NCBI GenBank assembly: GCA_947460235.1
Contig: CANHGK010000020.1
Span: 1-41,987, forward strand
Direction of reading: 5' to 3'
Source of the DNA: Paenibacillaceae bacterium
GTDB lineage: Bacteria; Bacillota; Bacilli; Paenibacillales; CANHGK01
Length of the DNA: 41,987 nucleotides
Shown here: positions 16,480 to 30,733 of the stretch, piece after piece
How the letters are laid out: each line of letters begins with the position of its first letter
Numbering within the stretch: the stretch's first letter is position 1
The notes under the pieces: model-generated
What the model was told of the DNA's origin: nothing
Seen by the model: only the letters and a program-made list of their open reading frames with translations
The model's database searches: none
Translations under genes and position numbers: made by a program

Positions 16480-16488
16480 GAGTTGAAC

Positions 16489-20628
<4,140 letters not shown>

Positions 20629-24710: not shown

Positions 24711-24806
24711 ATGGAAAAATCAGAAATTCAAAGGAGATTTAGAGGATTTGACGAAAATATAGTTAATCTAACCAAAGTATGCCGTTTCGTAATGGAGGGA
24801 AATTTG

Positions 24807-27362
24807 TTGCAGAAGAAAACTGGGATGTCCATAGGATTGAAAATCTTTCTTGGTATATTTGTTGTAGTGATGGCAGGAGTAATTGTTATATCCTATTTAT
24901 CATTTTCATTTTCGAAATCAACTATTAAAGATCAAGTATCAAAAGCGACGCAACAAACGATTGATCAAATCAAAGGAAAACTTGATCTTGTTCTCGGGGT
25001 ATATGATTCGATAGGGTTACAAGTACTTAAAAATAGTGGTTTGCGTGATGATCTTGAATATGTCTCAGTCGCAGGTCGCGATCATGCGGAACAGGTTACA
25101 TATGGAGAACGGATCAAAAGTTTATTATCAGGCTATCGTGATTCAAATGAATTTTTGGTTGGCGTTCGTCTCGTGCAAAATCAACCCTTTTCTATTGATA
25201 AAGATAATTTAGAGCTTGATTATGCAAACATGTATACGAGTCGCCCGACTAATAATATTTATTTAACAAATGAAAATTTTTCGAATATTCAAGAGATGAT
25301 TGCAAAAAAAGGCGAAACCGTGTTTACCGGTACGTATCAAAACGGATTTTATACCAAGGCAGGTGTTGAAACACAGCGAATTACGACTGGACCAACATTT
25401 GTAATGGGGAAAATAGTAAACAATTTATTGCATCCAGAAGCCACGTATTTGTTGATGCTTGAAATTAGTTTGAAATCGATTGGTAAAATTATAAAAGATG
25501 CGCAGTTGGGCGAATCTTCAGAAGTGATCGTATTGGACAGGGAAAATCATGTTGTCTATTCAAATGACATGAACTTACTCGGTAAAGCAAGTCCGATTCA
25601 AATCGATGAGGAATTCAAAGACAAAACATCGGGTGCCTTCTTCAAGGAATTTGAAGATGGACAAGAACATATGGTTGTGTTTAATACGTCAAAAGAGTAT
25701 GGATGGAAAGTAATCGGACATTTACCAACAAAAGTGTTATATAAAGATATCGATACGACCTTACAATTATCGATCACGACATCGATCGTAATGTTTTTGA
25801 TCGTGCTTTTCTCACTCATTTTATTACGGCGCTTTGTTTCGACACACCAAAGATTACAAGTCTATTCCAATCAGTTGGAGCAAACATCATTTGAACTAAA
25901 AGAAAAGAATGATGCACTAACGCAAAAAACAGATGAGGTTGTCCAACAATCGGAATTGCTTTCTTCGCAAAATGACCAACTTGGACGTCAATCACGTGAA
26001 TTGGAACGAAAAAATAAAGAACTCGCTAAACAATCCGCGGAATTGGAAACGAAAAATGATGAGTTGCATCAATTAAATCAAGTAAAAGATAAAATTTTGG
26101 CAAACACGTCTCATGAACTTCGAACACCATTGAACGGGATCATCGGGATTGCGGAATCGCTAATTGATGGTGTTGCTGGAAAAATCACAGAGAAGATGCA
26201 ACAAAATTTACAAATCGTCGTGATGAGCGGCCGACGATTGTCTGCGTTGGTGAATGATATTTTGGATTTTTCGAAGTTGAAGTCGAACAAATTTGTGTTG
26301 AGTCGTCGAGCGGTCTCTGCAAGTGATTTGGTGAACTTGGTGATTTTGCTTTCTAAACCACTTATCGCAGATAAACCAGTTGAACTTCGGAATGATTTGG
26401 GAAAAGCGTTGCCACTTATTGATGTGGATGAAAATCGATTCCAACAAATCATTCACAATTTGATTTCGAACGCCATTAAATTTACGGAAAAAGGTCAAGT
26501 TCGGGTGTCTGGATTAGTAGAAGGTACGAAGTTGGCAATTACGGTTCATGATACAGGGATGGGTATACCACAAGATAAACTTGAAGATATTTTCAAATCG
26601 TTCGAACAAGTCGATGGCTCAATATCGCGGAAATATGGCGGAACCGGATTAGGATTAGCGGTTACGAAACAATTGGTTGAATTACATGGTGGAGAAATTA
26701 ATGTCAATTCTCAAGAAGGAAAAGGATCTTCCTTTACGATCACGTTGCCAATCGCATTGGAGGCTACTGAAGAAAATCCTGAAGTTCGGTCAACCATTCA
26801 GAAACGACTTGCCGAAACGCAATTGGCTTTATCTGAATCGACCAAAATATCGGATCGTCAAATGAAAATACAAATCGATACGTCTGGCGATGTGAATGTG
26901 CTCATTGTTGATGATGAACCGATTAACTTACAAGTATTAACGAACCAACTTTCAACGTTTGATTTTGGATTAACGACCGCTACCAATGGTATTGAGGCGT
27001 TGGCATTGGTAAAATCCGGTAAGAAATTTGATATCATTTTACTGGATGTCATGATGCCAGAAATGTCGGGATACGAAGTATGCCAATTGATCCGCAAAAC
27101 ATATACGTTGCAGGAGTTGCCGATTATTTTGCTGACCGCAAAAAATCAGACAGAAGACTTGTTAATGGGGTTTAATTCAGGAGCGAATGATTATTTGGTC
27201 AAACCGTTTTCGAAACAAGAATTGATTGTTCGAATGAATATGCACTTGAAACTTGCGAAATCATCGCGTCAATTAAAAGCGATGAAAGAACGAATCGAAA
27301 CTCAAAGTCAAACATATGCGAATGAAATTGAAATACTGAAAGAAAAATTAGAAAAGCGATGA
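24807..27362 (+). CDS. Membrane-bound hybrid histidine kinase (dCache-like sensor, HisKA, HATPase, REC)
   Basis: An 851-residue hybrid sensor kinase. A first membrane helix (about 10-30) and a second (about 321-343) enclose a roughly 290-residue outside domain of dCache type. There is no clear HAMP domain: the second helix runs into a long Gln/Glu-rich coiled coil (about 350-425). HisKA follows with phospho-acceptor His436 (SHELRTPLNGIIG), then the ATPase with N box NLISNAIKFTEKG, G1 DTGMGIP and G2 GGTGLGLAV. A receiver domain (about 695-815) carries Asp747 in LLDVMMPEMSG, and a short coiled coil ends the protein. The frame is open from ATG 24711, but that codon lies at the end of a terminator; GGAGGGA at 24794-24800 points to TTG 24807. 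It is 29 bases ahead of a CheA-like protein. Ligand unknown. Confidence 0.88.
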   Translation: MQKKTGMSIGLKIFLGIFVVVMAGVIVISYLSFSFSKSTIKDQVSKATQQTIDQIKGKLDLVLGVYDSIGLQVLKNSGLRDDLEYVSVAGRDHAEQVTYGERIKSLLSGYRDSNEFLVGVRLVQNQPFSIDKDNLELDYANMYTSRPTNNIYLTNENFSNIQEMIAKKGETVFTGTYQNGFYTKAGVETQRITTGPTFVMGKIVNNLLHPEATYLLMLEISLKSIGKIIKDAQLGESSEVIVLDRENHVVYSNDMNLLGKASPIQIDEEFKDKTSGAFFKEFEDGQEHMVVFNTSKEYGWKVIGHLPTKVLYKDIDTTLQLSITTSIVMFLIVLFSLILLRRFVSTHQRLQVYSNQLEQTSFELKEKNDALTQKTDEVVQQSELLSSQNDQLGRQSRELERKNKELAKQSAELETKNDELHQLNQVKDKILANTSHELRTPLNGIIGIAESLIDGVAGKITEKMQQNLQIVVMSGRRLSALVNDILDFSKLKSNKFVLSRRAVSASDLVNLVILLSKPLIADKPVELRNDLGKALPLIDVDENRFQQIIHNLISNAIKFTEKGQVRVSGLVEGTKLAITVHDTGMGIPQDKLEDIFKSFEQVDGSISRKYGGTGLGLAVTKQLVELHGGEINVNSQEGKGSSFTITLPIALEATEENPEVRSTIQKRLAETQLALSESTKISDRQMKIQIDTSGDVNVLIVDDEPINLQVLTNQLSTFDFGLTTATNGIEALALVKSGKKFDIILLDVMMPEMSGYEVCQLIRKTYTLQELPIILLTAKNQTEDLLMGFNSGANDYLVKPFSKQELIVRMNMHLKLAKSSRQLKAMKERIETQSQTYANEIEILKEKLEKR

Positions 27363-27391: not shown

Positions 27392-30241
27392 ATGCCAGGT
27401 TTTGAACGATCCAGCCGTCGAAACAAAGTCATCATGAGTATATTTATTATCGCCTGTGCATGTCTTTGCGCAACGTTCATTCAATTGAATGTAGATGAAA
27501 ATGAACGCTCCTTACATGAGCAACAAATTCGAGTCGTAGATCAGGAATTAAACGATTCTGTCCAAATTATGGATGAAAATTTTCTTGGAATCGAACGAGT
27601 CGTAATGGCGTTATCCAAACAAATCGATATCACGCAAATCAATTCGAAAATGGATTTATGGAAATCTTTGTTGCCGGATGCAACGGAGATTCATTTTTAC
27701 ACGCAAACAGACGAACGTGAAAAGGAAGTTGTCGCTGCAATCAGTCAGGGCGGCAAGCCCGTTTGGTTCTTTGATCAAAATCAATTGACATTCTCCAAAT
27801 TGATCACGGGGTCGAATCAAAGTGTTGTAGCAGTGATCGATTTTAACTCGCGAATGATCGACCTACTGACAAATAGAAAAAATGAAAGTATTCATTTGGC
27901 ACAAACAAATGACGAAATGATAAAACTTCTTGATGTAACGAAAGAATATCGAAATAAACAGTCGACGATCACCGGATGGTATTTTGTCAAAGAAATTGTG
28001 CCGACGGGTCCATCGAAATTAGCAGTTATTAACATGAATCCTACCTCAGCGTATGTTTGGATGTTTATTTTAATTGTATTACCAATGATGTTGATTTATT
28101 TATGGCGTTTCGAGAACGGCACGAGTAGTCAACTCAGAAACGATGTACTGGGTGTTACGAAGCGTGCCATGGAGCAAGAAGGCATCGATCAAAGCGCTCA
28201 AGAAAATATGGTTGCAGAAAATCAGCCAATTGAACCAGAGACTATATTAGACGCATCGAAATCTCATGATACGGAAATCCCATTGGAACAACCGATATCG
28301 ATTATCGGAGATGAAGTTGAGGAAATAAACATCCCTCATGGCAAGGGCGAAATGATTTTTATCGTTGATGATGATCATGTGGCATTACGAGTTGCTTCGA
28401 GACAACTTCAATTACATGGATATCGCACGCAAACATTCGATACGTCTGCAGGGTTTCTATCGGGTGTCGAACAATTCGGCGTACCAGATGCAATTCTGTT
28501 GGACGTGATGTTGCCTGATGTGAGCGGGCTGGATTTATGTAAAGTTTTACGTGATCGTTACACACCGATTGAGTTGCCAATTATATTCCTTTCTGGACGT
28601 GGGGAACTCCCGGATATGATTCATGGATTCGATCAGGGAGGGAATGATTATTTAATCAAACCCGTTACAAAAGAAGAGTTACTCGTTCGATTGCGGATAC
28701 AGATCCAATTATCCATGTGGGGTAATGAAATGAAAGAGGCTGTGATTCGTCGAAGTGGATCGATGCGAGCATTGATGGATCATTCGGATCAGGGCTTTAT
28801 GAGTATTGGGCAAGATTTAATTATCTCCGAAGAGTATTCACTTGCTTGCAAAAGAATGTTTAATCGTGAATTAACGGGGTTACCATTTGCGGCGTTACTT
28901 GAACCAAATAATCCAATTGAAGAAGAGTTATTAACTCAAATATTAATCAAATTGTTTGTAGAAACGAATCCGATTTCGCGTGAAATTATGTTAGGGTTAT
29001 TACCCGTATCCATGTTGGTGGATCAACGCGTGTTAAGTTTAACCTACAAAATTTTAGAAGATGAAACCGGTATGCCAATTCGAGTGCTTGTGTTTATTAA
29101 TGATCAAACCGATGCGGAGCGGTTGCGCAAGCGGATCACGGAAGAACAGTATCAGTTAAAAATGGTTGTTAAAGTGGTAACGAAACGGCGTGATTTCACA
29201 GATTTATTGGAGCATTATTTTTCGTTTTGTGATAGTTGGGCGGATGAAATGGTTAGCGACACACAAACGCCTATGTTTATTTTGATGGATCTATATCGAC
29301 AATTCCACACATTTAAAGGGAATTTTTCTCAATATGATATGCATCATTCTGTAAAGCAATTTCATGAGTTCGAACATATCTTGAACGAAATGACGAGACA
29401 GCAATTCACGCATGATGATTTACGACATTTGATGAGTAAATATTCGTTCCGTTTATTCATCCAATCTGATCTTGATGTCATCATTCGGGCGCTAGGCGAA
29501 GAGTTTATGAAGAAAACAGATGATGTTACCATTCAACGCCATCGAATGAAAGAACTCGAGCAGATGGCAATGCAAGAATTAACCGGTGAGCAAAGCCATG
29601 AATTTACAGTTGCGCTGCGATGTTTGTATTATAAACCCTTAAAATCATTGTTGGAACCTTATTCTCCATATGTACAGCAATTGGCTCAGCGGATGGATAA
29701 ATCAGTGCATGCGTTTAAAGTTGATGGCGACGGTACTTTAGTGGATGAATTTGCGTTCGAAGGATTCCTGAATGCAATGGTACACATTTTCCGAAATAGT
29801 GTAGACCATGGGATTGAAACGTACGAAGATCGGATTGAATTCGGGAAAGATGGAAATGCAAAAATCACTTGTAAGGTTTCGGAGCAGCGTGATGGCATAT
29901 TAATCGAAGTGAGAGACGATGGACGTGGGATTAGCCCTTCTAGGGTGAAGCGCCGTGCACTTGATCTGGGATTACTAAGCGAACGAGATTCGAATTTGTG
30001 GAATGATGCACAGATTATTAATTTGATCTTTCACGAACAGTTTACGACTAAAAAAGTAGTAACGGAAATTTCGGGAAGAGGAATTGGGTTGTCAGCAATT
30101 AAGCAAGTTGTTGCTCAAATGGGTGGTCGGATTCATGTGAATTCCTCAACTGGAGATGGGACAACGGTTGCTATTAAATTGCCTTGGGGTGATGGTATCG
30201 TTCCTCAAAATGCGTTGTATATGAAGTTTACTAAAACATAA
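27392..30241 (+). CDS. Membrane-bound CheA-like kinase with REC, PAS-like and HPt domains
   Basis: A 949-residue signalling protein of unusual layout. A helix at about 14-33 and one at 219-240 enclose an outside domain of about 185 residues. Inside come a linker, a receiver (about 321-441, Asp371 in ILLDVMLPDVSG), a PAS-like region (about 456-575, SDQGFMSIGQDLIISEEYS), an HPt-like region with His639 in FHTFKGNF, and a CheA-type ATPase (about 780-935) with N box HIFRNSVDHGIE, DDGRGI and SGRGIGLSAIKQVV. The ATPase is of chemotaxis type, yet there is no C-terminal CheW-like P5 domain and no methyl-accepting protein nearby. GAGGAGGT precedes ATG 27392. It is in one operon with the hybrid kinase and likely passes phosphate among its own REC, HPt and partner receivers; direction of flow is inference. 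Confidence 0.85.
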   Translation: MPGFERSSRRNKVIMSIFIIACACLCATFIQLNVDENERSLHEQQIRVVDQELNDSVQIMDENFLGIERVVMALSKQIDITQINSKMDLWKSLLPDATEIHFYTQTDEREKEVVAAISQGGKPVWFFDQNQLTFSKLITGSNQSVVAVIDFNSRMIDLLTNRKNESIHLAQTNDEMIKLLDVTKEYRNKQSTITGWYFVKEIVPTGPSKLAVINMNPTSAYVWMFILIVLPMMLIYLWRFENGTSSQLRNDVLGVTKRAMEQEGIDQSAQENMVAENQPIEPETILDASKSHDTEIPLEQPISIIGDEVEEINIPHGKGEMIFIVDDDHVALRVASRQLQLHGYRTQTFDTSAGFLSGVEQFGVPDAILLDVMLPDVSGLDLCKVLRDRYTPIELPIIFLSGRGELPDMIHGFDQGGNDYLIKPVTKEELLVRLRIQIQLSMWGNEMKEAVIRRSGSMRALMDHSDQGFMSIGQDLIISEEYSLACKRMFNRELTGLPFAALLEPNNPIEEELLTQILIKLFVETNPISREIMLGLLPVSMLVDQRVLSLTYKILEDETGMPIRVLVFINDQTDAERLRKRITEEQYQLKMVVKVVTKRRDFTDLLEHYFSFCDSWADEMVSDTQTPMFILMDLYRQFHTFKGNFSQYDMHHSVKQFHEFEHILNEMTRQQFTHDDLRHLMSKYSFRLFIQSDLDVIIRALGEEFMKKTDDVTIQRHRMKELEQMAMQELTGEQSHEFTVALRCLYYKPLKSLLEPYSPYVQQLAQRMDKSVHAFKVDGDGTLVDEFAFEGFLNAMVHIFRNSVDHGIETYEDRIEFGKDGNAKITCKVSEQRDGILIEVRDDGRGISPSRVKRRALDLGLLSERDSNLWNDAQIINLIFHEQFTTKKVVTEISGRGIGLSAIKQVVAQMGGRIHVNSSTGDGTTVAIKLPWGDGIVPQNALYMKFTKT

Positions 30242-30370: not shown

Positions 30371-30733
30371 TTATGCACTTAGAACTTGAGTGATCACTTC
30401 GACGACTTTGTCCTCGACGATTGGTTTCACAATGTAGTGCTTTGCACCGCTTTTCAATGCCTCGAATACCATGTGACGTTGCTCTAATGCACTGATCATT
30501 ACAATACGTGCTTCAGGGAAAATTTCAATGATCCGCTTGACGCTTTCAATACCGTTCATGACAGGCATGTTGATGTCCATAGTAACTAAATCAGGCATAT
30601 GTGTAGCGTATGCAGCAAACGCCTCTTTACCGTTCGTTGCTTCACCAACAATTGTGTGGCCGGCTTCTGTGAGGATCGTTTTTAAATTTCTCCGCATGAT
30701 CATGGAATCGTCCACAATTAAAATTCGTGCCAT
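30371..30733 (-). CDS. Stand-alone CheY-type response regulator
   Basis: A 120-residue single-domain receiver. The acidic pair is D8-D9 (LIVDDS), the phospho-acceptor Asp53 (TMDINMPVMNG), the switch Ser81 (MISAL) and the conserved Lys103 (IVKPI). There is no output domain. Sequence is close to CheY of Firmicutes, which binds the flagellar switch, but no flagellar or other chemotaxis genes are in the window. It converges on the operon of two membrane kinases and is a natural candidate to take phosphate from the CheA-like ATPase; that pairing is inferred from proximity. GGAGGTG lies about 11 bases before ATG 30733. Confidence 0.88.
   Translation of the reverse strand: MARILIVDDSMIMRRNLKTILTEAGHTIVGEATNGKEAFAAYATHMPDLVTMDINMPVMNGIESVKRIIEIFPEARIVMISALEQRHMVFEALKSGAKHYIVKPIVEDKVVEVITQVLSA

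Follow-up and report, generated by a model that had tools for sequence, protein, structure and literature searches.

CheA is generally viewed as a kinase that acts through CheW and receptor arrays. Besides CheA, the closest described systems are the HisKA hybrid kinases of the TorS and ArcB type and the CheC/CheX phosphatases of CheY. The window analysed here, a stretch of 41,987 nucleotides from a Paenibacillaceae bacterium (contig CANHGK010000020.1, assembly GCA_947460235.1), encodes a membrane protein with a CheA-type ATPase behind its own sensor region. This kinase is probably a member of a chemoreceptor-independent pathway that runs from a sensor-bearing CheA-like kinase to CheY, with CheX in many relatives, the phosphotransfer being read from sequence. 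No published description of the PAS-HPt-P3-P4 kinase family was found in a search that left most subscription journals outside, where an earlier description is possible, and the family is apparently undescribed.

Domain layout of the kinase

The features of the locus are listed in Table 1. The reading frame is open for 949 codons. Hydropathy agreed with the original prediction, made from the sequence alone, of a membrane anchor formed by two helices around an outside domain; Pfam matched nothing in this domain, and none of the proteins compared was related to it. The REC and PAS-like regions of that prediction were also recovered, REC by Pfam and PAS by AF2 models and fold matches, and the 83-member family alignment placed Asp371 and His639 where they had been proposed.

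Table 1. Features of the kinase locus, in positions of the window.
Feature	Position	Strand	Evidence
Hybrid kinase, weak dCache match, HisKA-HATPase-REC	24711..27362	+	Pfam; 29 bases separate its end from the kinase
Membrane CheA-like kinase, 949 aa: TM-outside domain-TM-REC-PAS-HPt-P3-P4	27392..30241	+	ORF, domain searches, model, hydropathy
TM helix 1, about residues 12-32	27425..27487	+	Hydropathy maximum
Predicted outside sensor domain, about residues 33-216 (~185 residues)	27488..28039	+	No family match
TM helix 2, about residues 217-239	28040..28108	+	Hydropathy
REC, residues 322-434, phospho-acceptor D371	28355..28693	+	Pfam PF00072, E 2.2e-22; Z 22.5 vs VicR REC
PAS domain, residues 467-572	28790..29107	+	AF2 models; PAS folds by Foldseek and VIA
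CheA-P1-type HPt, residues 599-702; H639 (29306-29308), E661	29186..29497	+	Family profile vs 1tqg; paralog Hpt matches
Short P3-like helical hairpin, residues 716-747	29537..29632	+	AF2 model; P3-P4 alignment to 4xiv and 1b3q
CheA P4-type ATPase, residues 748-935	29633..30196	+	Pfam, NCBIfam, PDB sequence comparison, family profile; Z 23.2 vs 1i58
Single-domain CheY of the partner lineage; gene convergent with the kinase gene	30371..30733	-	55-67% identity to most of its top matches among kinase-adjacent receivers of other genomes; CheY tree

The ATPase carries the motifs HIFRNSVDHGIE and SGRGIGLSA. Its proposed CheA type was borne out by the NCBIfam CheA model (residues 748-936, E 1.5e-46), by PDB sequence comparison and by the structural match of the modelled P4 to CheA P4 (Z 23.2); the modelled P3-P4 matched CheA-289 with Z 22, and Pfam HATPase_c covered residues 796-931 (E 1.1e-18). 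Against the curated NCBIfam CheA cut-offs the kinase scored 159 of 950 and 114 of 793 bits, which is below both. Modelled by AF2, residues 300-949 (mean pLDDT 91.2) showed the order REC, long helix, PAS, helical bundle with H639, two-helix hairpin and ATPase. A second AF2 model had a PAS fold (pLDDT 93.7), with matches to the PAS of DosP (Z up to 11.4) and also to FixL and CitA.

Pfam gave no match for PAS, HPt or HisKA in the kinase itself; several paralogs exceeded the Pfam Hpt cut-off (31.6-32.1 bits vs 24.6). The profile of the 83 members matched CheA P3-P4 (4xiv) at E 1.5e-60 and, separately, CheA P1 (1tqg) over the FHTFKGNF segment at E 8.7e-8, consistent with the HPt-like character proposed for that segment. 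P3 (PF02895) had no Pfam match in the family; profile and structure nonetheless align P3-P4 with 4xiv and 1b3q. HPt chains were absent from the structure-search match lists of the model because REC, PAS and P4 fill those lists, and the HPt assignment rests on sequence profiles and a predicted helical bundle. Pfam found no CheW/P5 domain (PF01584) in the kinase or its paralogs, and just 14 residues follow P4, as expected from the proposed lack of a C-terminal CheW-like domain.

A kinase family separate from CheA

Two P3-P4 trees were built with CheAs of Bacillota, Pseudomonadota, Bacteroidota, Cyanobacteriota and Desulfobacterota, the second adding those of Azospirillum, Novosphingobium, Sinorhizobium, Pseudomonas (Chp-like), Persicobacter, Desulfolutivibrio and one cyanobacterium. 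In both, a 100/100 branch separates the family from all sampled CheAs, as would be expected of the distinct signalling class first suggested. The family is not CheA by three criteria: P5, the curated cut-off and the clade. The candidate assignment of the kinase as a true CheA was rejected by the P5 search, which found none, and by the trees. The original prediction also saw in the protein a chemotaxis kinase converted to a membrane sensor; the CheA-type HPt and ATPase without P5 stand, but the direction of change does not follow, since both trees are unrooted and P5 loss by the family, P5 gain by CheA or a common P1-P3-P4 ancestor are all possible.

The kinase has the family pattern of contiguous PAS, HPt, P3-like hairpin and P4. 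H639, E661, N802 and the glycines G844, G895, G897 and G899 are kept in 83/83 aligned members, H798 in 82/83 and K642 in 80/83, with R in the remainder. H639 and E661 are 22 residues apart, as are phospho-histidine and partner glutamate in CheA P1. An adjoining REC is present in 13/83 rows of the alignment, and D371 is kept in all 13.

The class proved far broader than first seen, with 25 copies of the PAS-HPt-P3-P4 module in the 2.72-Mb genome and relatives in several phyla. Of these copies 21 are intact and four are degenerate (L015:1384-3279, L010:4308-7043, L027:3511-7308 and L027:8111-11791). All four degenerate paralogs retain a REC match but lack the HPt histidine as well as the ATPase boxes; no copy is missing just one. 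This joint loss suggests that the two probably act together. If copies were independent, one arrangement in 12650 would be expected to show the pattern, a figure to be read with the tandem position of two of the four, which makes fewer loss events likely than independence assumes. The four dead members also suggest that some copies act without catalysis.

The sensor parts of the 25 copies are varied and include dCache, HAMP, 7TMR-DISM, TPR, REC alone and a whole HisKA-HATPase-REC kinase; three copies end in a CheX domain. Double kinases of about 1230-1290 aa, with HisKA-HATPase-REC-PAS-HPt-P4 in one chain, occur at L009, L010, L011, L012 and L027 and often adjoin another hybrid kinase. The genome also holds three true CheAs, all with P5, and none of its six CheW domains falls in the PAS-HPt-P3-P4 family.

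A collection scan with a five-sequence subset gave the cross-phylum relatives, in Bacillota, Desulfobacterota, Campylobacterota, Calditrichota and Zixibacteria. Named relatives belong to Paenibacillus, Cohnella, Brevibacillus, Desulfosporosinus, Syntrophomonas, Sporomusa, Clostridium and Solidesulfovibrio, and those from MAGs to Campylobacteraceae, Calditrichales and Zixibacteria. Matches to the A2 profile, some of them to the PAS part only, were found in 8/41 genomes of relatives, 38/395 of the order, 21/399 of the class and 18/398 of the phylum, with the own genome included in each count. Copy numbers in the order survey were taken from the top five candidates per genome, and all candidates were scored in the survey of relatives. 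The PAS domain of the family also precedes GGDEF-HD domains (L078, L079, L096-L100) and is thus a module common to the family and c-di-GMP-type enzymes. L164:1495-7437 and its Brevibacillus relatives are proteins of about 1980 aa with TPR-like, GAF and PAS-HPt-P4 parts, followed by a convergent single-domain CheY as in the window. A candidate relative only is WP_151125625.1 of an Ideonella plasmid (L232:2906-5296), named just "Hpt domain-containing protein"; it is a distant match to part of PAS-HPt-P3-P4 at about 25% identity, but its gene adjoins an annotated methyl-accepting chemotaxis protein.

CheY, CheX and hybrid-kinase genes

The adjacent partner CheY gene, the link to CheX and the paired upstream hybrid kinase had been left out of the original prediction. 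The CheY of the window shows 53-67% identity to the forty proteins that match it best among kinase loci, nearly all of them partner receivers, and it groups with 25 partner receivers (SH-aLRT 89) in a tree of 120 columns that is weakly supported overall. Its gene is convergent in the own genome and lies outside the kinase operon. By raw count, a receiver gene adjoins the kinase in 61/78 loci of named genomes, 54 of them downstream, and none is adjacent in the other 17. Many partner receivers are extended by some 110 residues; in one of them this tail has weak similarity to STAS (E 0.011). Among the 395 genomes of the order, CheY of the window type occurs in 17 and the kinase in 38, and all 17 genomes with this CheY also hold the kinase, a co-occurrence to which adjacency and shared descent contribute.

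Only two CheYs of the partner lineage are present in the genome vs 21 intact kinases. The second (L193:6751-7113, contig C29) stands alone between purE-like and guaA-like genes. A third CheY, 47% identical, has its gene roughly 2 kb away from fliM and is likely to be the one used in chemotaxis.

CheX was found in 48/78 kinase loci, fused to the kinase in 42 and as a separate neighbouring gene in six; the window kinase itself has none. At a Paenibacillus silviterrae locus (L112:8738-10204), a fusion of a class III nucleotide cyclase with CheX follows the kinase and receiver gene. The hybrid kinase directly upstream in the window is the probable operon mate of the CheA-like kinase, and similar pairs or fusions occur at other paralog loci. 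Elsewhere in the window, positions 16483-20628 encode a protein of 1381 aa that combines an S-layer homology domain with carbohydrate-binding domains of the CBM_4_9 type.

Proposed pathway and comparison with known systems

In the pathway proposed here, the input region, that is, the TM-flanked outside domain with the internal REC and PAS, would set the ATPase activity of P4, and P4 would phosphorylate, within the dimer, H639 of the CheA-P1-type HPt. The phosphoryl group would then pass from H639 to a CheY-type receiver, most likely the adjacent CheY and/or its paralog on contig C29, and both CheYs may serve many of the intact sister kinases, 21 in all. Signalling would be terminated in most relatives by CheX, fused or separately encoded, through dephosphorylation of CheY. 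A second signal probably enters through the internal REC and the upstream hybrid kinase; REC input from such a HisKA kinase is suggested by the sister proteins in which HisKA-HATPase-REC is fused in front of PAS-HPt-P4. The pathway is favoured by the CheA-like matches and order of HPt, P3 and P4, the near-invariant catalytic residues, the joint loss in the degenerate copies, the receiver and CheX neighbours, the co-occurrence of CheY and kinase, the difference of both partner CheYs from the CheY near FliM and the lack of CheW; the convergent position of the CheY gene, the short and weakly supported CheY tree, the four dead copies and the 17 loci with no adjacent receiver count against it.

The same upstream hybrid kinase and sister fusions would fit a phosphorelay intermediate, in which the HPt is mainly charged by a receiver (its own REC, fed by the HisKA hybrid) and passes phosphate to CheY while P4 modulates. 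This is unlikely, as the catalytic boxes of P4 are essentially invariant in the 83 members and are lost along with the HPt histidine, and few rows have an adjoining REC. It is less probable still that the internal REC is the main target, in a closed or inhibitory loop where HPt phosphate goes to D371 and no CheY is dedicated to the kinase: an intact REC with D371 does lie in the same chain, but most family members have no REC yet have an adjacent CheY-type gene, and CheY of the window type was never found without the kinase among the 395 genomes. A chemotaxis kinase still working in receptor arrays, coupled by a route other than P5, is very improbable: it would fit the CheA-like P1, P3 and P4 and the presence of FliM and three CheAs with CheW in the genome, but the kinase has its own TM sensor, the window region has no CheW domain or gene, the clade is separate from CheA and the partner CheY is distinct from the one near FliM.

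The sensor-to-CheY pathway may extend further. We tentatively suggest a second, receptor-array-free "chemosensory" system in which some twenty separately anchored CheA-like kinases converge on two single-domain CheYs; if so, many stimuli would be integrated at CheY and not in a receptor-CheW-CheA array. The family keeps the catalytic core and phospho-acceptor of CheA, coupled directly to ordinary sensor domains and with CheX and CheY as partners, and offers a natural case against which to judge what P5 and arrays contribute. It bears on the origin of CheA and predicts partners for many genes that now have generic names only.

Judged from sequence, the family most likely works like a CheA. It shares with CheA (P1-P2-P3-P4-P5) an HPt with H, K(+3) and E(+22), a P3-like hairpin, the same domain order, a P4 with the HxxRNxxDHGIE N-box and a CheY-type partner. 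Unlike CheA, it has a TM sensor and PAS in front, the HPt directly before P3-P4 with no P2 detected, a shorter P3, no P5/CheW, a separate clade and often a C-terminal CheX. The HisKA hybrid kinases of the TorS and ArcB type resemble the window kinase in combining a membrane sensor with a REC and an HPt in a single protein; the window kinase differs in its CheA-type ATPase, in having no HisKA and in an HPt that precedes the ATPase and is presumably its direct substrate. As in the CheC/CheX phosphatases of CheY, the C-terminal domain of many relatives scores above the Pfam CheX cut-off, and the ExxN..xGN motif is present in 38/54 CheX domains, but in this family the fused CheX occupies the position that P5 has in CheA.
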